Position numbers and translations under genes: made by a program. A DNA stretch of 64,000 bases from Thiomicrospira pelophila DSM 1534 (GTDB lineage Bacteria > Pseudomonadota > Gammaproteobacteria > Thiomicrospirales > Thiomicrospiraceae): assembly GCF_000711195.1 (NCBI RefSeq), contig NZ_JOMR01000001.1:372001-436000 (forward strand). The letters are read 5' to 3'. Below, one piece after another: positions 985 to 26,188 of the stretch. Below the pieces are notes generated by a model, which saw only the letters and a program-made list of their open reading frames with translations, did no database searches and was not told where the DNA came from. Positions within the stretch are counted from its first letter, which is position 1, and each line of letters starts with the position of its first letter.

Positions 985-996
985 ACCAGGCCTGGT
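985..996. repeat. 12-bp palindrome ACCAGGCCTGGT, copy 1
   Basis: Exact intergenic copy between the cbbM terminator and cbbQ, extended to 14 bp (984-997). It starts 105 nt after the cbbM stop. Confidence 0.95.
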
Positions 997-6823: not shown

Positions 6824-6835
6824 ACCAGGCCTGGT
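6824..6835. repeat. 12-bp palindrome, copy 3
   Basis: Intergenic exact copy extended to 18 bp (ACCACCAGGCCTGGTGGT, 6821-6838), 18 nt beyond the mrpG stop on the minus strand. Confidence 0.95.
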
Positions 6836-9473: not shown

Positions 9474-9856
9474 GATTTTGCCTCCTGGTTGTTATGACTG
9501 CTGATTTGTTCAGGCAGCCGTTCATCATCCGCTAGGTGTAAACCATCCACATGGTCATTCCCCATTTCACCCCGAGCCTTTAGCGCTAATACAATTAAGA
9601 AGGCGGTCATACCAAACGCAATTACTATCGCGGTTAACACTAAAGCTTGTGGCAGCGGGTCAGCATAACCAGCCGCGGCGGCATCAATTACCGCCGGTTG
9701 GCCAATGGTTAAACGTCCCATTGCAAACAAAAACACGTTAACGGCATAGGCCAATAAAGTTAAACCTAATACGACCGGAAAGGTGCGGGCACGCAGGGTT
9801 AAATACACACCCGCGCTGGTCATAACCCCGATAAGAATTGCAATTAACCATTCCAT
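9470..9856 (-). CDS. mrpC: Mrp Na+/H+ antiporter subunit C
   Basis: A 128-aa homologue of NuoK with three transmembrane helices (about 1-22, 28-50, 70-95). The central helix contains NVFLFAMGR and the third follows DPLPQALVLTAIVIAFG, which is typical of MrpC/MnhC. It overlaps mrpAB by 13 nt and mrpD by 4 nt. The last 30 residues are acidic and soluble. Confidence 0.94.
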   Translation of the reverse strand: MEWLIAILIGVMTSAGVYLTLRARTFPVVLGLTLLAYAVNVFLFAMGRLTIGQPAVIDAAAAGYADPLPQALVLTAIVIAFGMTAFLIVLALKARGEMGNDHVDGLHLADDERLPEQISSHNNQEAKS

Positions 9857-12684
9857 TGTTTTGTCTCCTGTTGAGGGCTGTGACCATTATGGTGAGAGGC
9901 ATAACTCAGCTTGCCGAGTTGAACCAAACTCATCACCGTTGCGCCGACCACGACAAGGAAAACCCCAACGTCAAACGCGATGGCGCTCGCCACTTCAAAC
10001 TTGCCGACCACCGGCCAGGTTAAATAGGTAAAGGTGGAGGTTAAGAATGGGAAGCCTAAACCAATCGCCACTAAGCCGGTACCGGTCGCGGCTAATAACC
10101 CAAAACCAATTACCCAATGCATATCCGCTTTTAATCGATCACTGGTCCATTCAATGCCATTGGCGAGGTATTGAACAATCAACGCCACCGCCGCAATCAA
10201 GCCGGCTATAAAGCCGCCACCCGGCAGGTTGTGACCGCGTAGAAAAATATACACCGCCACCATTAACATTAAGGGTAATAGCAGGCGAGTTAAGGTCTGC
10301 ATAATCATTGGGTGGTTATCTAAGCTCCACTGGCGGCCATGCGAATCTTTGTCGGGGGCGGGTAGTTTCATTCCTTCTAACATGGCAAAAATACCCAAAC
10401 CAGCTAGTGCCAGTACAACGATCTCTCCAAGAGTATCAATGCCACGGAAATCCACTAAAATGACATTTACGACGTTGGTACCCCCCCCGCCTGGCTTGGC
10501 GTTTTCTAGGAAGTAAGTCGAGATAGGATCGTATTCGCGACTTAAGACCGCCATGGTAAATAAGGTCACGCCGACCCCGGCCAAAATTGAAATGACCGCA
10601 TCACGACTTAAACGCAAGCGACCAACTTCTTTAGGGCTGGTTTGAGGTAGGAAATAAAGCGCCAGCAATAATAAAACAATCGTCACCACTTCTACTGATA
10701 ACTGAGTAAGTGCCAGATCTGGGGCTGAAAACTTAACAAAACCAAGCGATACAATTAAACCGACCACGCCAATTGTAATCAGAGCGGTTAAGCGCTGTTG
10801 ATGCCAGCGCACGGTTAAGTAGCTTGCAACGATTAAAGCCAGCGCGGCGGTTAGGGTCACGGCATCAAGTGGCAAGCCTTCACGGTCGCCCAGCAAGGCT
10901 GCAGGCATCGACATAAAGCCGATCAAGCCCGCAACAAGAGCTGCGCCAATCACCCAGACTGCGGCGTGCTGAAGTGAACCTTTGTCGAAGCCACGCGTTA
11001 AGCGTACCGAAAAACGTAAGGTGGACAACAGAATCGCGTTATATAAAACACGCGCATCAATTTGCGCAATAAAGCGTTCATGCAAGGCAAACAAACGCTC
11101 GCGCACAAAGTAAACCGCTACCCCTAATGTCAGGGCGAGCAAACTCATCATCAGCGGCAAATTGAAACCATGCCAAATTGCCAAGCTATAATCCGGCGGA
11201 GTTGCTTGAAGTGTACCGGCCACCGCAACCGCTAAGATCGGTGCGACGGTGAACATTGGCACAATGCCGACGGCCAAACAAATGATCACGAGCAGGTCGA
11301 CTGGGATTTTCATAAAACGCGGTGGCTCGTGTGGGGTTTTTGGTAGATCAATCGGTTCGCCATTAAAGAACACATCGTGAATAAAACGCAATGAATAAGC
11401 CACCGAAAAAATCGCGGCGATGGTCACAATAATCGGAATAAACCAAGCCAAAGCCGATGCATGTGAGGCGGTGATGGCCTGCTCAAAGAACATTTCTTTA
11501 CTCAAGAAACCGTTTAATAACGGAACCCCCGCCATCGCGGCGGCGGCGATCATCGCTAACACGGCCGTGTGAGGCATGTATTTAAGTAAGCCATTGAGCT
11601 TGCGCATGTCGCGCGTACCGGTTTCGTGATCAATAATGCCCGCCACCATAAATAAAGAAGCTTTAAACGTGGCGTGATTAATAATATGAAAAATAGCCGC
11701 CACCGCCGCCATATGGGTGCCAAAACCGAATAATAAGGTGATTAAGCCTAAATGACTGATGGTTGAGTAAGCGAGCAGACCTTTTAAATCGTGCTTAAAT
11801 AAGGCGGTATAAGCACCAATTACAAAGGTGATCATCCCTGCACCGCCGACTAGCCACATCCATTCAGGCGTGCCGGATAAAGCGGGGAAAAAGCGTGCCA
11901 ATAAGAAAATGCCAGCTTTTACCATGGTAGCTGAATGCAAGTAGGCCGAAACCGGCGTAGGGGCTGCCATCGCGTGAGGTAACCAAAAGTGGAAAGGGAA
12001 TTGTGCTGACTTAGTGAATACACCTAACAGAATCAATACCAGCGCGGGTACATAAAGTTCGTGGCTTCGAATGAGGTCACCGGCCGCGAGTACATCGGTT
12101 AAATTGTAACTGCCGACAATATGACCTAATACCAACACACCGCCGAGTAAAGCTAAGCCGCCCGCGCCCGTGATCGCCAAAGCCATGCGAGCGCCCTGGC
12201 GTGCATCTTTGCGGTGTTGCCAATAGCTAATTAATAAGAAAGAACTTAACGAGGTCAGCTCCCAAAATACCACCAGTTGAATCATGTTTTCGGATAACAC
12301 GATCCCCAGCATTGAACCCATAAACATCAGCAGGTAAGCAAAAAAACGTCCCATGGAATCATTGGGCGACAAGTAATATCGTGCATACACAATGATTAAT
12401 AAGCCAATCACCAAAATGAGCATCGCAAACAGCAGCGAAAGACCATCTAGCCGGAAGGCAAAGTCTAAGCCAATGGCCGGCATCCATGTCCAGCTCTGCA
12501 CCAAAGTTTCGCCGTTAAACGGAACACTAAAAGTCGGTGCTAAAAAAGCCATCGCCAGTACCGTAATACCAGCGGCTGCCCAGGCTGAAGCAACCCGGCT
12601 AAGCTTGGAGGACCAAGCCGCTAAAATGGCCCCGGCAAAAGGAAGTAGGGCTACGATCGGGAGGTTAAACGCAACTAAACTCAT
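9844..12684 (-). CDS. mrpA: Mrp Na+/H+ antiporter subunit A fused to subunit B
   Basis: A 946-aa polytopic protein, the first gene of the Mrp operon. Residues 1-500 form the NuoL-like antiporter module (VFWELTSLSSFLLISYW, KSAQFPFHFWLPHAMAAPTPVSAYLHSATMVKAG). Residues about 600-770 include the MrpA C-terminal module with GGTNVVNVILVDFRGIDTLGE. The last 150 residues, from the NHPMIMQTLTRLLLPLMLMVAVYIFLRGHNLPGGGF region on, are an MrpB domain, so A and B are one polypeptide as in many Gram-negative Mrp systems. Mrp exchanges cytoplasmic Na+ for H+ and supports growth in saline or alkaline conditions. A run of eight G in the coding strand lies at 10481-10488. Confidence 0.95.
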   Translation of the reverse strand: MSLVAFNLPIVALLPFAGAILAAWSSKLSRVASAWAAAGITVLAMAFLAPTFSVPFNGETLVQSWTWMPAIGLDFAFRLDGLSLLFAMLILVIGLLIIVYARYYLSPNDSMGRFFAYLLMFMGSMLGIVLSENMIQLVVFWELTSLSSFLLISYWQHRKDARQGARMALAITGAGGLALLGGVLVLGHIVGSYNLTDVLAAGDLIRSHELYVPALVLILLGVFTKSAQFPFHFWLPHAMAAPTPVSAYLHSATMVKAGIFLLARFFPALSGTPEWMWLVGGAGMITFVIGAYTALFKHDLKGLLAYSTISHLGLITLLFGFGTHMAAVAAIFHIINHATFKASLFMVAGIIDHETGTRDMRKLNGLLKYMPHTAVLAMIAAAAMAGVPLLNGFLSKEMFFEQAITASHASALAWFIPIIVTIAAIFSVAYSLRFIHDVFFNGEPIDLPKTPHEPPRFMKIPVDLLVIICLAVGIVPMFTVAPILAVAVAGTLQATPPDYSLAIWHGFNLPLMMSLLALTLGVAVYFVRERLFALHERFIAQIDARVLYNAILLSTLRFSVRLTRGFDKGSLQHAAVWVIGAALVAGLIGFMSMPAALLGDREGLPLDAVTLTAALALIVASYLTVRWHQQRLTALITIGVVGLIVSLGFVKFSAPDLALTQLSVEVVTIVLLLLALYFLPQTSPKEVGRLRLSRDAVISILAGVGVTLFTMAVLSREYDPISTYFLENAKPGGGGTNVVNVILVDFRGIDTLGEIVVLALAGLGIFAMLEGMKLPAPDKDSHGRQWSLDNHPMIMQTLTRLLLPLMLMVAVYIFLRGHNLPGGGFIAGLIAAVALIVQYLANGIEWTSDRLKADMHWVIGFGLLAATGTGLVAIGLGFPFLTSTFTYLTWPVVGKFEVASAIAFDVGVFLVVVGATVMSLVQLGKLSYASHHNGHSPQQETKQWNG

Positions 12685-12804: not shown

Positions 12805-12822
12805 AGCGCCAGGCCTGGCGCT
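12805..12822. repeat. 18-bp palindrome with symmetric variant core GCCAGGCCTGGC
   Basis: AGCGCCAGGCCTGGCGCT is a perfect palindrome in which both outer bases of the usual 12-mer are changed (A to G and T to C), so symmetry is preserved. It lies 8 nt from copy 4. Confidence 0.9.
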
Positions 12823-12834
12823 TAGAATTGAACC

Positions 12835-12846
12835 ACCAGGCCTGGT
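12835..12846. repeat. 12-bp palindrome, copy 4
   Basis: Exact copy extended to a perfect 20-bp palindrome (12831-12850), starting 4 nt beyond the stop codon of the minus-strand gene at 12854. Confidence 0.95.
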
Positions 12847-18327: not shown

Positions 18328-18339
18328 ACCAGGCCTGGT
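18328..18339. repeat. 12-bp palindrome, copy 6
   Basis: Intergenic exact copy extended to 14 bp (18327-18340), 41 nt after the ldhA stop. Confidence 0.95.
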
Positions 18340-21971: not shown

Positions 21972-23210
21972 ATGATTAAACGTTATTTAGTCTTAACGGG
22001 CTTAGTGATAGGGGCCTTGTTGAATGCCGGTTGCGCGACGATGGGAGAAAGTGCGACGGCGTTACTTGAAGTTCCGTCAGTTGAGGCCAGCGCGAATCGG
22101 GTTGCGGTTGGAACGGGTGTGCTAAGAGTCAACCATCACATGCTCAATAATATGCCGATTTCAGCCGATGCCAACTGGCCCAAATTAGTTACGGATGAGA
22201 TTACGGATGCCGACTATAAGGCGATTCGAAAAGCATTAGAAAACGACCCTTGGTATGCCACTCGCCATTACTCCGACCCTTATCAACTGCAAGTGTTGGG
22301 CGGTTATATGGCACCGGGCATTTCACCGCTGACCTATGAAGTCTATCAAAAAATATTGGTACTCTATGGCCCTGATGCCGAGAACTGGCCAAACGTGCTT
22401 AAGTATTCACCCAAGCTTGATCAGTTTCTGGAGTTTGTGGATGCCGAAGATAAAACGCCCATTCAAATAGAAGCAGCGCAGGCGAATATGTATCCAAACT
22501 TGTTTGCCGCTATCACGTCCTTGATGCCGGTTAATTATCAAAAAGATTTAAGTGTTTCGCATGACGAAATGCAAACCGCATTTGATGAAACTGCCTACTT
22601 AAAAAAAGATAAGGCGTATCTCGAAAAACGTCTTGAAGATAATAAAGCCACGATTAAACCTAATTATTCAGGACCCTTAAGTCCTTTAAGCTCAGCGGAG
22701 ATTGAGCAGATTAATGAGCAAATTTCGGTACTGGATGTACAAATTAAACAGGCCGAGCAGCAAGCTGATCAAAAGCAAGAGATTCATTTTCAGCTATTGG
22801 ATTCGGCACTCGATGCGGTTAAAAGTGACATTAACTTATCGAAAGACAACGTGATGTTGGCGCACAACATTAAACAGGTATTGGATGATATAAAATCCAG
22901 CGCTATGCAAGCGGGCGTACTTTATACCTTGTCGGTGGCGTCTTTAATCGGGCGTAACAGTTTTCAAAACTTCGATAAAGAATTGATGAGCTTAGCGGCT
23001 TCAACCGCATTGGTACCGGTAAAAAAACGCGACTTAATGGGGGCTCGGATCGAGCGCTTAACTGAAAATGTGATTTATTTGTTGCCTTCTATCGGCATGG
23101 GCAGTTATTACATAGTGAAGCAATATTCATTAGCGGGTAAATATGCCAAAGTCGTGGATGTGGTGATTGAAGCCGATGCCAGTCAGAAAAAAATGCAGGC
23201 CGCAAAATAA
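21972..23210 (+). CDS. Lipoprotein with coiled coil, 412 aa
   Basis: ATG 21972 is preferred over 21966 because the AAGGA ribosome site at 21962-21966 is correctly spaced only for it. The signal peptide ends at the lipobox LNAGC. Residues about 195-275 are highly charged and helical with glutamine/glutamate repeats (EQINEQISVLDVQIKQAEQQADQ), a probable coiled coil. The C-terminal third has two weakly hydrophobic stretches (VLYTLSVASLIG, VIYLLPSIGMGSYYIV). Function unknown. The TAA stop shares its final A with palindrome copy 7. Confidence 0.8.
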   Translation: MIKRYLVLTGLVIGALLNAGCATMGESATALLEVPSVEASANRVAVGTGVLRVNHHMLNNMPISADANWPKLVTDEITDADYKAIRKALENDPWYATRHYSDPYQLQVLGGYMAPGISPLTYEVYQKILVLYGPDAENWPNVLKYSPKLDQFLEFVDAEDKTPIQIEAAQANMYPNLFAAITSLMPVNYQKDLSVSHDEMQTAFDETAYLKKDKAYLEKRLEDNKATIKPNYSGPLSPLSSAEIEQINEQISVLDVQIKQAEQQADQKQEIHFQLLDSALDAVKSDINLSKDNVMLAHNIKQVLDDIKSSAMQAGVLYTLSVASLIGRNSFQNFDKELMSLAASTALVPVKKRDLMGARIERLTENVIYLLPSIGMGSYYIVKQYSLAGKYAKVVDVVIEADASQKKMQAAK

Positions 23211-23221
23211 CCAGGCCTGGT
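23210..23221. repeat. 12-bp palindrome, copy 7 (overlaps a stop codon)
   Basis: Exact copy whose first A is the last base of the TAA stop of the lipoprotein gene. Confidence 0.95.
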
Positions 23222-23284: not shown

Positions 23285-24301
23285 ATGTTTAAAAATAGTT
23301 TAATAAGTTTGGTTATGTTATTCGTGTTGGGCGGATGTGTGTCAAATCCAAGCCAACCTTCGAGTTCATCAAATCAAAGCTCACAGGCCAAGCCGGAATT
23401 GATGGTGCCAGCGGACAATCAAGCGCATTTTTACTCGCAAGGTTTTGGCGAGTCTGAACAAGCGGCACAAAAAGATGCGTTAGCGCGCATTGCGACACGT
23501 ATTTCGGTTTCAGTTCAATCTCAAACCGAAACCAACTTAGCGGTGACCATGCGTGATGGGGATGAGAAGGTTGAACAAGACTATCGAAACCAAGTCTTAA
23601 CCCAAACCAAAGCGATTGATTTTGTCGGAGTCCGTTTGTTAGACCAGCAGCGTAATGCCGGTCAAGTTGAAGTGGTCGTGAGTGTAAATCGCCAAGCACT
23701 GATCCAGAATTACCAAAATAAATTGAATCAAGCGCAATCTCAGCTTAAACAAGACTTTGAGCTTTTTAAACAAACCAGCTTGTTTGAGCAATTAAAAAAT
23801 AAATCGGCGATCATGCAACAGTCGGCGGAACTTATGTCGACTTTCAGTGTGATGCAGGTATTGCAGCCATCCTATAAGCCCGATGCGGTGATTGGCTTAA
23901 ATCAAGCTTTGTATGCGCATATGAGTCAGCAACAACAAACGGCGGTGTTTTCAATTCAAGCGGATCAAAACTCACAAGCCCTAGGTCAGTTGATAGAGCA
24001 ACAATTGACCGCAGAAAACTACAAGGTCTCGAATAGTGGAGCAAATGTACGCTTACAAGTTATGACGCAAGCCACACCTTTATCGGTAAGAACCACCGAT
24101 GCACGCATTGCGAGCTTAAAGATGGTGAATCGTGATACTCAGATTACGGTCACCGATGCACAAAACCGCACGGTTTCGACCGCCAATTTAAAGGCTCGAG
24201 GTGTGTCACCGGAAAGCGAGCAGGCGGCCATTCAAGATACCACCGCTTATAGTCGAATGATGCAAGGTAAAACCATTGTTGAGTTTTTAAGCGGGCAATA
24301 A
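23285..24301 (+). CDS. LPP20-family lipoprotein, 338 aa
   Basis: The signal peptide ends at the lipobox LGGC. A Ser/Gln-rich linker (about 20-38) leads to an LPP20-type domain (about 40-145): HFYSQGFGESEQAAQKDALARIATRISVSVQSQTE, then a second half with VGVRLLDQQRNAGQVEVVVSVNRQALI. The rest (150-338) is a mixed alpha/beta region with TAENYKVSN and RLQVMTQATPLS. It closes the lipoprotein run and ends 30 nt before a bidirectional terminator shared with deaD. Confidence 0.83.
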   Translation: MFKNSLISLVMLFVLGGCVSNPSQPSSSSNQSSQAKPELMVPADNQAHFYSQGFGESEQAAQKDALARIATRISVSVQSQTETNLAVTMRDGDEKVEQDYRNQVLTQTKAIDFVGVRLLDQQRNAGQVEVVVSVNRQALIQNYQNKLNQAQSQLKQDFELFKQTSLFEQLKNKSAIMQQSAELMSTFSVMQVLQPSYKPDAVIGLNQALYAHMSQQQQTAVFSIQADQNSQALGQLIEQQLTAENYKVSNSGANVRLQVMTQATPLSVRTTDARIASLKMVNRDTQITVTDAQNRTVSTANLKARGVSPESEQAAIQDTTAYSRMMQGKTIVEFLSGQ

Positions 24302-24330
24302 GCTTATTCAATTGATTCGGACCATAAAAA

Positions 24331-24362
24331 AAGCCCAACCACCAGGCCTGGTGGTTGGGCTT
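24331..24362. terminator. Bidirectional terminator built on the repeated palindrome
   Basis: A 32-bp perfect inverted repeat centred on copy 8, flanked by A and T runs, lies between the convergent lipoprotein and deaD genes. The stem adds AAGCCCAACC to the ACCAGG core. It has almost no loop, so the actual RNA hairpin must open at the centre. Confidence 0.85.
24341..24352. repeat. 12-bp palindrome, copy 8 (core of terminator)
   Basis: Exact copy forming the apex of the terminator stem at 24331-24362. Confidence 0.95.
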
Positions 24363-24391
24363 TTGTTTAAGCCAACTTCTAATCTAGACGA

Positions 24392-26188
24392 TTAAGAACG
24401 ACGCGGCTTGCGAGCTGCGCCAGTACTTGGTTTACGGCTAAGTTTCGGACGCGGTCCGCCAGCTGGTGCGGCGCCCGCACTTTCATTAACTTCTGATAAG
24501 CCACTTGGCTGACCGCAAATCCAAGTTTTCTTCAAGGTCGCTAGCTGCTCTTTTGACAAATTGCTTGGCAAGTCAACCAAACTGAACGTGTCTTGAATGT
24601 TTAATTGACGAATTGATGAACCTTCAATACCACCTTCGTTCGCAATGGCGCCGATAATGTTCCCCGGCTTCACACCATTCGCAAAGCCGACATTTAAGCG
24701 ATAACGTTTCATGCCAGACTCAGGCGGGCCATCAGCGCGTGGGCGACGTGGCGCACGTTCTGGACGATCCGAACCTCGGTCGTTACGACCACGAGATGGA
24801 CGGTCACGACCAAAGTCACGAGAACCACGATCATCATCACGGAAGTTTTGGCGCATCGGTTTGTCTTCTAGGAAGAAAGGTGTATCACCCTGTACCAATT
24901 TAGCCAAAGCGGCGGCAATTTCTAAGGCTGGTACATTCGAAGCTTGCTGCATATCTTCGATCATTTTTTGATAGAACTCTAAGCCTTCCTGCTCTAAAGC
25001 ATCGGTAATACGAGCTTTGAATTTTTCTATACGCTGATCATTAATAGTTTGCGTGCTTGGTAATTCCAGCATGTCAATTTTTTTGTTAGTGGCGCGTTCA
25101 ATTTGCTGTAGCAAACGACGTTCACGTGGTGCCACAAACAAAATCGCATTACCTTCACGACCTGCACGACCGGTACGACCGATACGGTGAACATAGCTTT
25201 CCGTGTCATATGGAATGTCATAGTTGATAACATGCGTAATGCGCTCCACATCCAAACCACGCGCAACAACGTCCGTCGCGATTAAGATGTCGATTTTGCC
25301 TTTTTTCAACTGATTAACAATGCGTTCACGTTGGTTCTGCGCAATGTCACCGTTTAAGGCGGCGGCGGAATAACCACGCGCTTCGAGTTTTTCAGCCAAT
25401 TCAACCGTCGCCGTTTTGGTTCGTACGAAAATAATCATGCCATCGAAAGTGGTCGCTTCAAGAATGCGAGTTAACGCATCTAACTTATGCAAGCCACTGA
25501 CTAACCAGTAAGATTGGGTGATTAATGAAGCGGTGTTGGCTTTTTGCTTAATAATCACTTCAACCGGGTTGTTCAAATGCTTAGACGCGATTTTGTGCAC
25601 TTCTTTAGGCATAGTGGCTGAAAACAACGCAATCTGACGATCTTGTGGGGTTTGTTCTAGTACCCATTCGACGTCATCAATAAAGCCCATGCGCAACATT
25701 TCGTCGGCTTCGTCTAAAACTAAAGCTTGAAGTTGATCCAGTTTTAATGTGCCTTTACGCATATGATCCATAACACGACCCGGTGTGCCGACCACAACTT
25801 GGGCACCGCGTTTTAATGCCCGGATTTGGCCGCCATATTCTTGACCGCCATAAATAGGCAATACGTGAAAGCCTTTAATATGATGCGCAAAACCTTGGAA
25901 GGCTTCCGCCACCTGAATCGCGAGTTCGCGAGTCGGTGCTAAAACTAAAATTTGTGGGTTGGTGTTTTTGACGTCAACACGTGACAATAAAGGCAAAGCA
26001 AAGGCCGCGGTTTTACCAGTGCCGGTTTGCGCCATACCTAGAATGTCGCGTCCTTCCAAAATTGAAGGAATAGCTTGCGCCTGAATTGGAGATGGAGTTT
26101 CATAACCTATGTCTTTTAGGCCTTTTAAAACCATTGGATCAAGATTAAAACTCTCAAAAGTGATGTCTGTGCTAGATGTGTCGCTCAT
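24392..26188 (-). CDS. deaD: DEAD-box RNA helicase, DeaD/CsdA type
   Basis: An ATP-dependent RNA helicase for ribosome assembly and mRNA turnover, especially in the cold; 598 aa. Helicase motifs are in order: AQTGTGKT (I), PTREL (Ia), VLDEADEM (II), LFSATMP (III), HRIGRTGRAGR (VI). After the core comes a dimerisation-type helical segment (about 380-450), an Arg/Asp-rich linker (RDDDRGSRDFGRDRPSRGR) and a DbpA-type RNA-binding domain (about 495-560), which identifies the DeaD subgroup. The tail is basic. The promoter at 26449-26477 implies a leader of about 250 nt. Confidence 0.95.
   Translation of the reverse strand: MSDTSSTDITFESFNLDPMVLKGLKDIGYETPSPIQAQAIPSILEGRDILGMAQTGTGKTAAFALPLLSRVDVKNTNPQILVLAPTRELAIQVAEAFQGFAHHIKGFHVLPIYGGQEYGGQIRALKRGAQVVVGTPGRVMDHMRKGTLKLDQLQALVLDEADEMLRMGFIDDVEWVLEQTPQDRQIALFSATMPKEVHKIASKHLNNPVEVIIKQKANTASLITQSYWLVSGLHKLDALTRILEATTFDGMIIFVRTKTATVELAEKLEARGYSAAALNGDIAQNQRERIVNQLKKGKIDILIATDVVARGLDVERITHVINYDIPYDTESYVHRIGRTGRAGREGNAILFVAPRERRLLQQIERATNKKIDMLELPSTQTINDQRIEKFKARITDALEQEGLEFYQKMIEDMQQASNVPALEIAAALAKLVQGDTPFFLEDKPMRQNFRDDDRGSRDFGRDRPSRGRNDRGSDRPERAPRRPRADGPPESGMKRYRLNVGFANGVKPGNIIGAIANEGGIEGSSIRQLNIQDTFSLVDLPSNLSKEQLATLKKTWICGQPSGLSEVNESAGAAPAGGPRPKLSRKPSTGAARKPRRS

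Follow-up and report, generated by a model that had tools for sequence, protein, structure and literature searches.

A palindromic repeat of Thiomicrospira at gene ends: a putative terminator apex at one locus and a candidate uptake-like dialect

Between two convergent genes of Thiomicrospira pelophila DSM 1534, a 12-nt perfect palindrome, ACCAGGCCTGGT, lies at the center of a longer inverted repeat, and further copies of it recur throughout the window (the whole stretch of 64,000 nucleotides that was analyzed). An earlier note on this DNA had proposed that the palindrome doubles as a transcription terminator and marks the ends of genes, and had likened it to the DNA uptake sequences of Neisseria and Haemophilus. 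The locus thereby raises the question of whether the palindrome is a terminator in its own right or a genomic repeat that some terminators have taken in as their apex.

A putative terminator between convergent genes

The arms of the inverted repeat measure 16 nt each (36 nt in total if the adjoining A-T pairs are counted), and the copy of ACCAGGCCTGGT within it is 39 nt from the stop codon on each side (Table 1). The description of this copy in the earlier note as the apex of a 32-bp inverted repeat flanked by A and T runs between convergent genes is confirmed from the sequence. As RNA, the element is predicted to form a 16-bp stem with a GGCC loop, with folding energies of -28.5 kcal/mol on the forward strand and -28.0 kcal/mol on the reverse strand (z = -5.8 and -5.5, respectively; 0 of 200 shuffled sequences were equally stable on either strand). 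It is the first-ranked terminator-like site in the scanned 20 kb, and the tracts immediately 3' of the stem are TTTTGTTT on the forward and TTTTTTT on the reverse strand. An Rfam search at the site matched no known RNA element, and this candidate was ruled out. A homologue search with the lipoprotein returned a single match, from Thiomicrospira sp. Kmv17. Sequence, predicted fold, and orthologues together strongly imply a bidirectional intrinsic terminator common to the lipoprotein and helicase genes. The GC-rich stem, 4-nt loop, U-tract, and bidirectional placement between convergent genes are those of an ordinary Rho-independent terminator, and taken alone this one would be ordinary; it differs in that its apex is a copy of a genome-wide repeat.

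Table 1 Features at the terminator locus and intergenic copies of the palindrome in the window (positions are those of the window)
Feature	Position	Strand	Reading or basis
Intergenic ACCAGGCCTGGT	985..996	no strand	105 nt past stop; hairpin without T-tract
Intergenic ACCAGGCCTGGT	6824..6835	no strand	18 nt past stop of mrpG-like gene; hairpin without T-tract
Variant copy GCCAGGCCTGGC, core CCAGGCCTGG at 12809	12808..12819	no strand	Shares gap with the copy at 12835
Intergenic ACCAGGCCTGGT	12835..12846	no strand	7 nt past stop of DUF3581 gene; hairpin without T-tract
Intergenic ACCAGGCCTGGT	18328..18339	no strand	41 nt past stop; weak terminator-like pattern, fold z -0.6
Intergenic ACCAGGCCTGGT	23210..23221	no strand	Overlaps stop codon; without stable hairpin context; lost in G002
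LPP20-like lipoprotein gene, convergent	23285..24301	+	ORF; Pfam LPP20, E 2.5e-5, 25.0 bits, slightly below cut-off
A7 run, putative U-tract of leftward (helicase) transcript	24326..24332	-	Sequence; equal A/T tracts in G002 and G004
32-nt perfect palindrome AAGCCCAACCACCAGGCCTGGTGGTTGGGCTT	24331..24362	no strand	Predicted stem of bidirectional intrinsic terminator; fold energy
ACCAGGCCTGGT copy, predicted hairpin apex with GGCC loop	24341..24352	no strand	Sequence; exact in G002 and G004 orthologues
TTTTGTTT, putative U-tract of rightward (lipoprotein) transcript	24361..24368	+	Sequence
DeaD-type DEAD-box RNA helicase gene, convergent	24392..26188	-	ORF; Pfam DEAD, Helicase_C, DeaD_dimer, DbpA

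Orthologous loci were found through a search with the helicase, and the gaps downstream of it were compared by eye in 30 family members. Most of these gaps contain an intrinsic terminator, recognized as a hairpin followed by a T-tract. In T. pelophila (G000) and G002, the stem AAGCCCAACC...GGTTGGGCTT surrounds the palindrome; in G004 the stem around the identical palindrome is AAGCCCCGATC...GATCGGGGCTT, and the changes relative to the other two genomes preserve pairing. The palindrome is also the hairpin apex in G013 and G020, which belong to another genus, together with TTTT or a longer tract. A GCCCCC...GGGGGC stem with an unrelated loop is present in G005, G007, and, in degenerate form, G001, and in these three a copy of the GCAGGCCTGC type (in G005 a near match) stands apart from the stem, close behind the stop codon. 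In G003 the palindrome adjoins the terminator and is not inside it, and G008 has a terminator and no palindrome. Since the orthologous gaps keep a terminator with another loop or with a separate palindrome, the terminator of the helicase gap appears to be the stem and T-tract, and the palindrome its exchangeable apex.

A repeat with dialects in Thiomicrospiraceae

The complete genome of T. pelophila (2,108,215 bp) contains 613 copies of ACCAGGCCTGGT, compared with 0 for the reversed control. More detailed counts refer to a sample of 864 kb, or 41% of this genome, and relatives were covered in parts. There are 264 copies in the sample versus 0.08 expected from trinucleotide content, which is more than 3000 times chance; no other 12-nt palindrome has more than 3 copies there, and one-mismatch variants are far scarcer than the exact form. 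The window holds 20 exact copies, 14 inside genes and 6 intergenic.

Each of nine Thiomicrospira genomes carries between 181 and 688 copies of ACCAGGCCTGGT and other family members between 0 and 557, with no more than 1 in any genome outside the family. Several of the family members that lack it possess a repeat of their own. Dialects in relatives include ASCAGGCCTGST, and in G001, G005, and G007 ACCAGGCCTGGT occurs together with forms of the AGCAGGCCTGCT type. G030, G032, and G034 have a non-palindromic form, AAAATCTGCCAGGYTGGGG, with 215, 225, and 253 core copies, respectively, and at most 1 elsewhere. ACCGGCCGGTA is confined largely to G029, where 627 forward and 599 reverse matches were counted (1226 oriented matches, versus 0 to 6 per strand elsewhere). 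The G029 dialect can also be described as a palindrome with A-rich outer flanks, TACCGGCCGGTA, with about 600 matches per strand in this one species only. Two further genomes, G023 and G033, possibly have additional AT-armed dialects (AAAATGAGCAGGCCTGCTCATTT; ACAGGCCTGTYCGG pairs 3' of the helicase). A GGCC center is common to the palindromic dialects, and CCAGG is common to AAAATCTGCCAGGYTGGGG and ACCAGGCCTGGT. Judged from these sequences, ACCAGGCCTGGT appears to be one dialect of a family-wide repeat.

The sister dialects are also found between convergent genes. The G029 dialect reaches 2.9 copies per kb in convergent gaps versus 0.3 in divergent gaps, without long arms, and AAAATCTGCCAGGYTGGGG has 2.8 (G030) and 4.7 (G032) copies per kb in convergent gaps. 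Close pairs of AAAATCTGCCAGGYTGGGG in G030 and G032 are inverted in 12 of 12 cases, with no direct pair, and lie in convergent (most) or tandem gaps. Their members are mostly 25 to 33 nt apart, in both +- and -+ orders; in a pair of +- order, the A-rich arm would supply both an A-tract and a T-tract.

Placement at gene ends and association with terminators

Gene calls come from a purpose-written gene finder, and the start codons are approximate. In the 864-kb sample, convergent gaps hold 3.27 copies of ACCAGGCCTGGT per kb, tandem gaps 0.90, divergent gaps 0.48, and genes 0.23; the ratio of convergent to divergent density is 6.8 (p = 1.4e-7), and intergenic density exceeds coding density 4.4-fold (p = 3e-24). 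Genes contain 176 of the 264 copies. Intergenic copies are not placed at random with respect to gene ends: 67 of 87 are within 105 nt of a stop codon, compared with 37% of random intergenic positions (p ~5e-14), and 38 are within 20 nt versus 11.6% expected. Of the 54 copies in tandem gaps, 36 are closer to the stop codon than to the next start (p = 0.02). The distances in the window given by the earlier note, with all six intergenic copies at most 105 nt past a stop codon and three within 20 nt, proved correct, and its statement that the palindrome marks gene ends is supported by the placement statistics in 41% of the genome. In G006, a more distant Thiomicrospira, the corresponding densities per kb are 1.22 (convergent), 0.85 (tandem), 0.39 (divergent), and 0.40 (coding). 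The bias there is weak, and the strength of gene-end bias therefore differs between species.

Placement of this kind could arise from avoidance only, if copies were kept out of promoters and most of the coding sequence, gathered in the gaps under least constraint, and coincided with terminators by chance; such an account concerns placement and is compatible with a role in uptake. It is consistent with the 20-kb region of ribosomal-protein, tuf, fusA, and rpoC genes (G000:C1:1995001-2015000), which has 0 exact copies versus 6.1 expected, with the mild preference of tandem copies for the stop codon, and with a T-tract rate near background. However, copies in convergent gaps have on average 3.9 further base pairs beyond the palindrome, compared with 1.5 after random re-pairing of left and right flanks; 6 or more extra pairs are present in 8 of 24, where 0.44 would be expected. 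These correlated long arms, like the uniformly inverted close pairs of the sister dialect and their restriction to convergent and tandem gaps, point to selection for a hairpin, and we consider avoidance as the sole cause rather doubtful.

The association with terminators was examined with our own strict scan, for which a stem of at least 4 GC pairs and 5 or more T within 8 nt were required; of the 461 gene ends that had a usable gap, 72 qualified. A strict terminator coincides with the palindrome in 8 of 87 gene-end instances (~9%), at 7 places. Separate terminators are present at 10 of 79 palindrome-bearing gene ends without such overlap and at 54 of 374 palindrome-free ends. Since these rates are similar, and terminators are not scarcer in gaps with a palindrome, replacement of terminators by palindromes at gene ends was ruled out. 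T-tracts follow the hairpin no more often on the sense side (12 of 102) than on the antisense side (6 of 72) in T. pelophila (p = 0.61), and the counts pooled over the genus, 23 of 174 versus 9 of 124, show a weak sense excess that is not significant (p = 0.13); after coding copies, pooled with relatives, the count is 61 of 1022. A small excess of true terminators among the palindromes is plausible, and the class as a whole is not terminators. The proposed double role as a terminator thus appears sound for 24331-24362 and about six other places in the 864 kb, and does not extend to the class.

Genic copies occur mainly in two of the three reading frames, as QAW and PGL peptides. Of 162 such copies in the T. 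pelophila sample, 30 fall in the first tenth of the gene, an enrichment perhaps due to permissive N-termini or misplaced start codons and one that gene-end logic leaves unexplained. Four genic copies have at least 6 extra paired bases, which is above chance (L009 11592, L053 5664, L008 996, and L054 8721). A 2.3-kb stretch without called genes (L016, ~9700-11400) contains three palindromes, two of which have an identical 18-nt left flank, CCCAACCCAAACGACACC. Coding scores of genes with and without ACCAGGCCTGGT do not differ significantly, and so give no evidence on foreign genes.

Maintenance of the repeat and comparison with known systems

The copies are held in place between T. pelophila and G002. 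Over the 35 kb compared (83% identity), all 12 bases agree in 12 of 14 palindromes, versus 13% of other 12-mers (p = 2e-9); more distant members are without the palindrome at the few comparable sites, except for one dialect variant. Genes for ComEC, ComEA, and DprA were found, and such competence genes are not specific to users of DNA uptake sequences (DUS); ComEC occurs also in genomes in which no motif was found. Genera g5 and g7 lack ComEA, and both have 0 copies of ACCAGGCCTGGT, the only repeat counted there. The receptor family of the Neisseria DUS, ComP_DUS (PF16732), had no match above the cut-off in 36 genomes.

The account that we favor, and regard as moderately probable, is that an uptake-like repeat runs through the whole family, with ACCAGGCCTGGT as its local dialect and a minority of its gene-end copies serving in terminators. 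A process that recognizes its sequence would maintain the repeat at hundreds of sites, most probably the biased uptake of DNA from kin and its recombination; uptake specificity is something we infer here. Copies are best tolerated directly past genes, above all between convergent genes, as their placement shows. Because ACCAGGCCTGGT reads the same on both strands, one copy is enough to form a short hairpin, and with stem-extending flanks and a T-tract, as at 24331-24362, such a copy very probably serves as the apex of an intrinsic terminator that works in both directions. Most gene-end copies are hairpins that lack a U-tract and may be capable of at most weak termination or protection of mRNA 3' ends. 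Counting against uptake are the non-palindromic nature of described DUS and uptake signal sequences (USS), the ComP_DUS result, the occurrence of ComEC in motif-free genomes, and the weak convergent enrichment in G006.

Three other explanations were considered. The copies may be sites for a chromosome- or nucleoid-organizing protein, or gene-end roadblocks or mRNA-stabilizing hairpins, each selected at its own site and unconnected with uptake. The retention of 12 of 14 sites between T. pelophila and G002 agrees with this, dyad symmetry fits a dimeric protein, and gene-end hairpins free of U-tracts could stabilize 3' ends; however, the dialects turn over fast within one genus, which is unusual for a structural site, and more distant species have lost those few sites that could be compared, bar the one dialect variant, so that we judge the explanation unlikely. 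Less credible still is a dedicated terminator or gene-end element that spread because it terminates transcription: the clustering of copies behind stop codons and in convergent gaps, the long correlated arms there, and the site at 24341 would all fit, but two-thirds of the copies (176/264) are genic, strict terminators account for 8 of 87 only, palindrome-free ends have terminators at a similar rate, the sense-side T-tract excess is not significant, and other species terminate without the palindrome at orthologues of the 24341 site. It is equally improbable that the copies are a by-product of methylation and mismatch repair at CCWGG, GGCC, or AGGCCT inside the motif, as modeled for cyanobacterial HIP1, for although a perfect palindrome in hundreds of copies, patchily swapped for GC-rich palindromes between relatives, recalls cyanobacteria (PMC4390886), and the core contains two CCWGG sites and GGCC, the gene-end bias is strong and the sister dialects include non-palindromic forms and A-rich arms. 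The two methylase families covered by profile search also speak against it: the C5-cytosine methyltransferase family (PF00145) is absent from all nine Thiomicrospira genomes, and the only match in T. pelophila to the N6/N4 family (PF01555) is below the cut-off. On these grounds the methylation and repair model is disfavored, and Dcm- or HIP-type methylation was rejected as the cause, no C5-methyltransferase being found across the genus.

Extending the uptake-like reading to the family, we tentatively propose, as something that may well prove otherwise, that Thiomicrospiraceae have a fast-evolving set of uptake dialects, several of them perfect palindromes. Recognition of these would be directionless and would need a symmetric receptor, and palindromes would also provide hairpins at convergent gene ends, one copy doing the work of an inverted pair in a sister dialect. 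If true, this would be a third lineage with uptake sequences, in free-living sulfur oxidizers and with palindromic and non-palindromic dialects within one family; comparison would then allow tests of how such repeats originate, turn over, and are co-opted at gene ends, and the question would arise of how a directionless motif is recognized. The open-licence papers searched contained no report of ACCAGGCCTGGT as a genomic repeat or of uptake sequences in these genera, which is weak evidence of novelty.

Uptake sequences with experimental support have been described in Neisseriaceae and Pasteurellaceae, and as described both DUS and USS are non-palindromic (PMC1852404, PMC2397512, PMC3630211). 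A ComP-type receptor defines the Neisseria system, and the receptor of Pasteurellaceae is predicted only (PMC12616744). Eight DUS dialects with a common core are known (Frye et al., PMC3630211). Uptake sequences are part of 54-57% of gene-end terminators in Neisseria and of 17-29% in Pasteurellaceae, as determined with TransTermHP (Kingsford et al., PMC1852404), and their hairpin-forming pairs are concentrated tail-to-tail, the +- order giving A and T tails (PMC1852404). In comparison, ACCAGGCCTGGT is present in ~11% of strict gene-end terminators (8/72), a figure from our own scan that is not directly comparable with those from TransTermHP. In contrast to DUS and USS, ACCAGGCCTGGT is a perfect palindrome without direction, one copy of which makes a hairpin, whereas the dialect of G030, G032, and G034 is non-palindromic as they are. 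Unlike Neisseria, the genomes with ACCAGGCCTGGT are without a ComP_DUS receptor; the likeness to DUS and USS is one of pattern.

HIP1 of cyanobacteria is a GC-rich palindrome in very many copies that is swapped for other palindromes in some relatives, for which a methylation and repair model has been put forward (PMC4390886). The ACCAGGCCTGGT family resembles it in GC-rich symmetry, very high copy number, and replacement of palindromes in relatives, and differs in its greater length, strong gene-end bias, non-palindromic sister dialects, and the absence of a matching methyltransferase in the two families searched. With the DUS of Neisseria and the USS of Pasteurellaceae it has in common hundreds of copies, species dialects that share a core, few mismatched variants, and a concentration of hairpins and close inverted pairs in convergent gaps, as well as co-option into terminators, some genic copies, and competence genes. 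The likening to the uptake sequences of Neisseria and Haemophilus therefore seems apt, and the dialects strengthen it.
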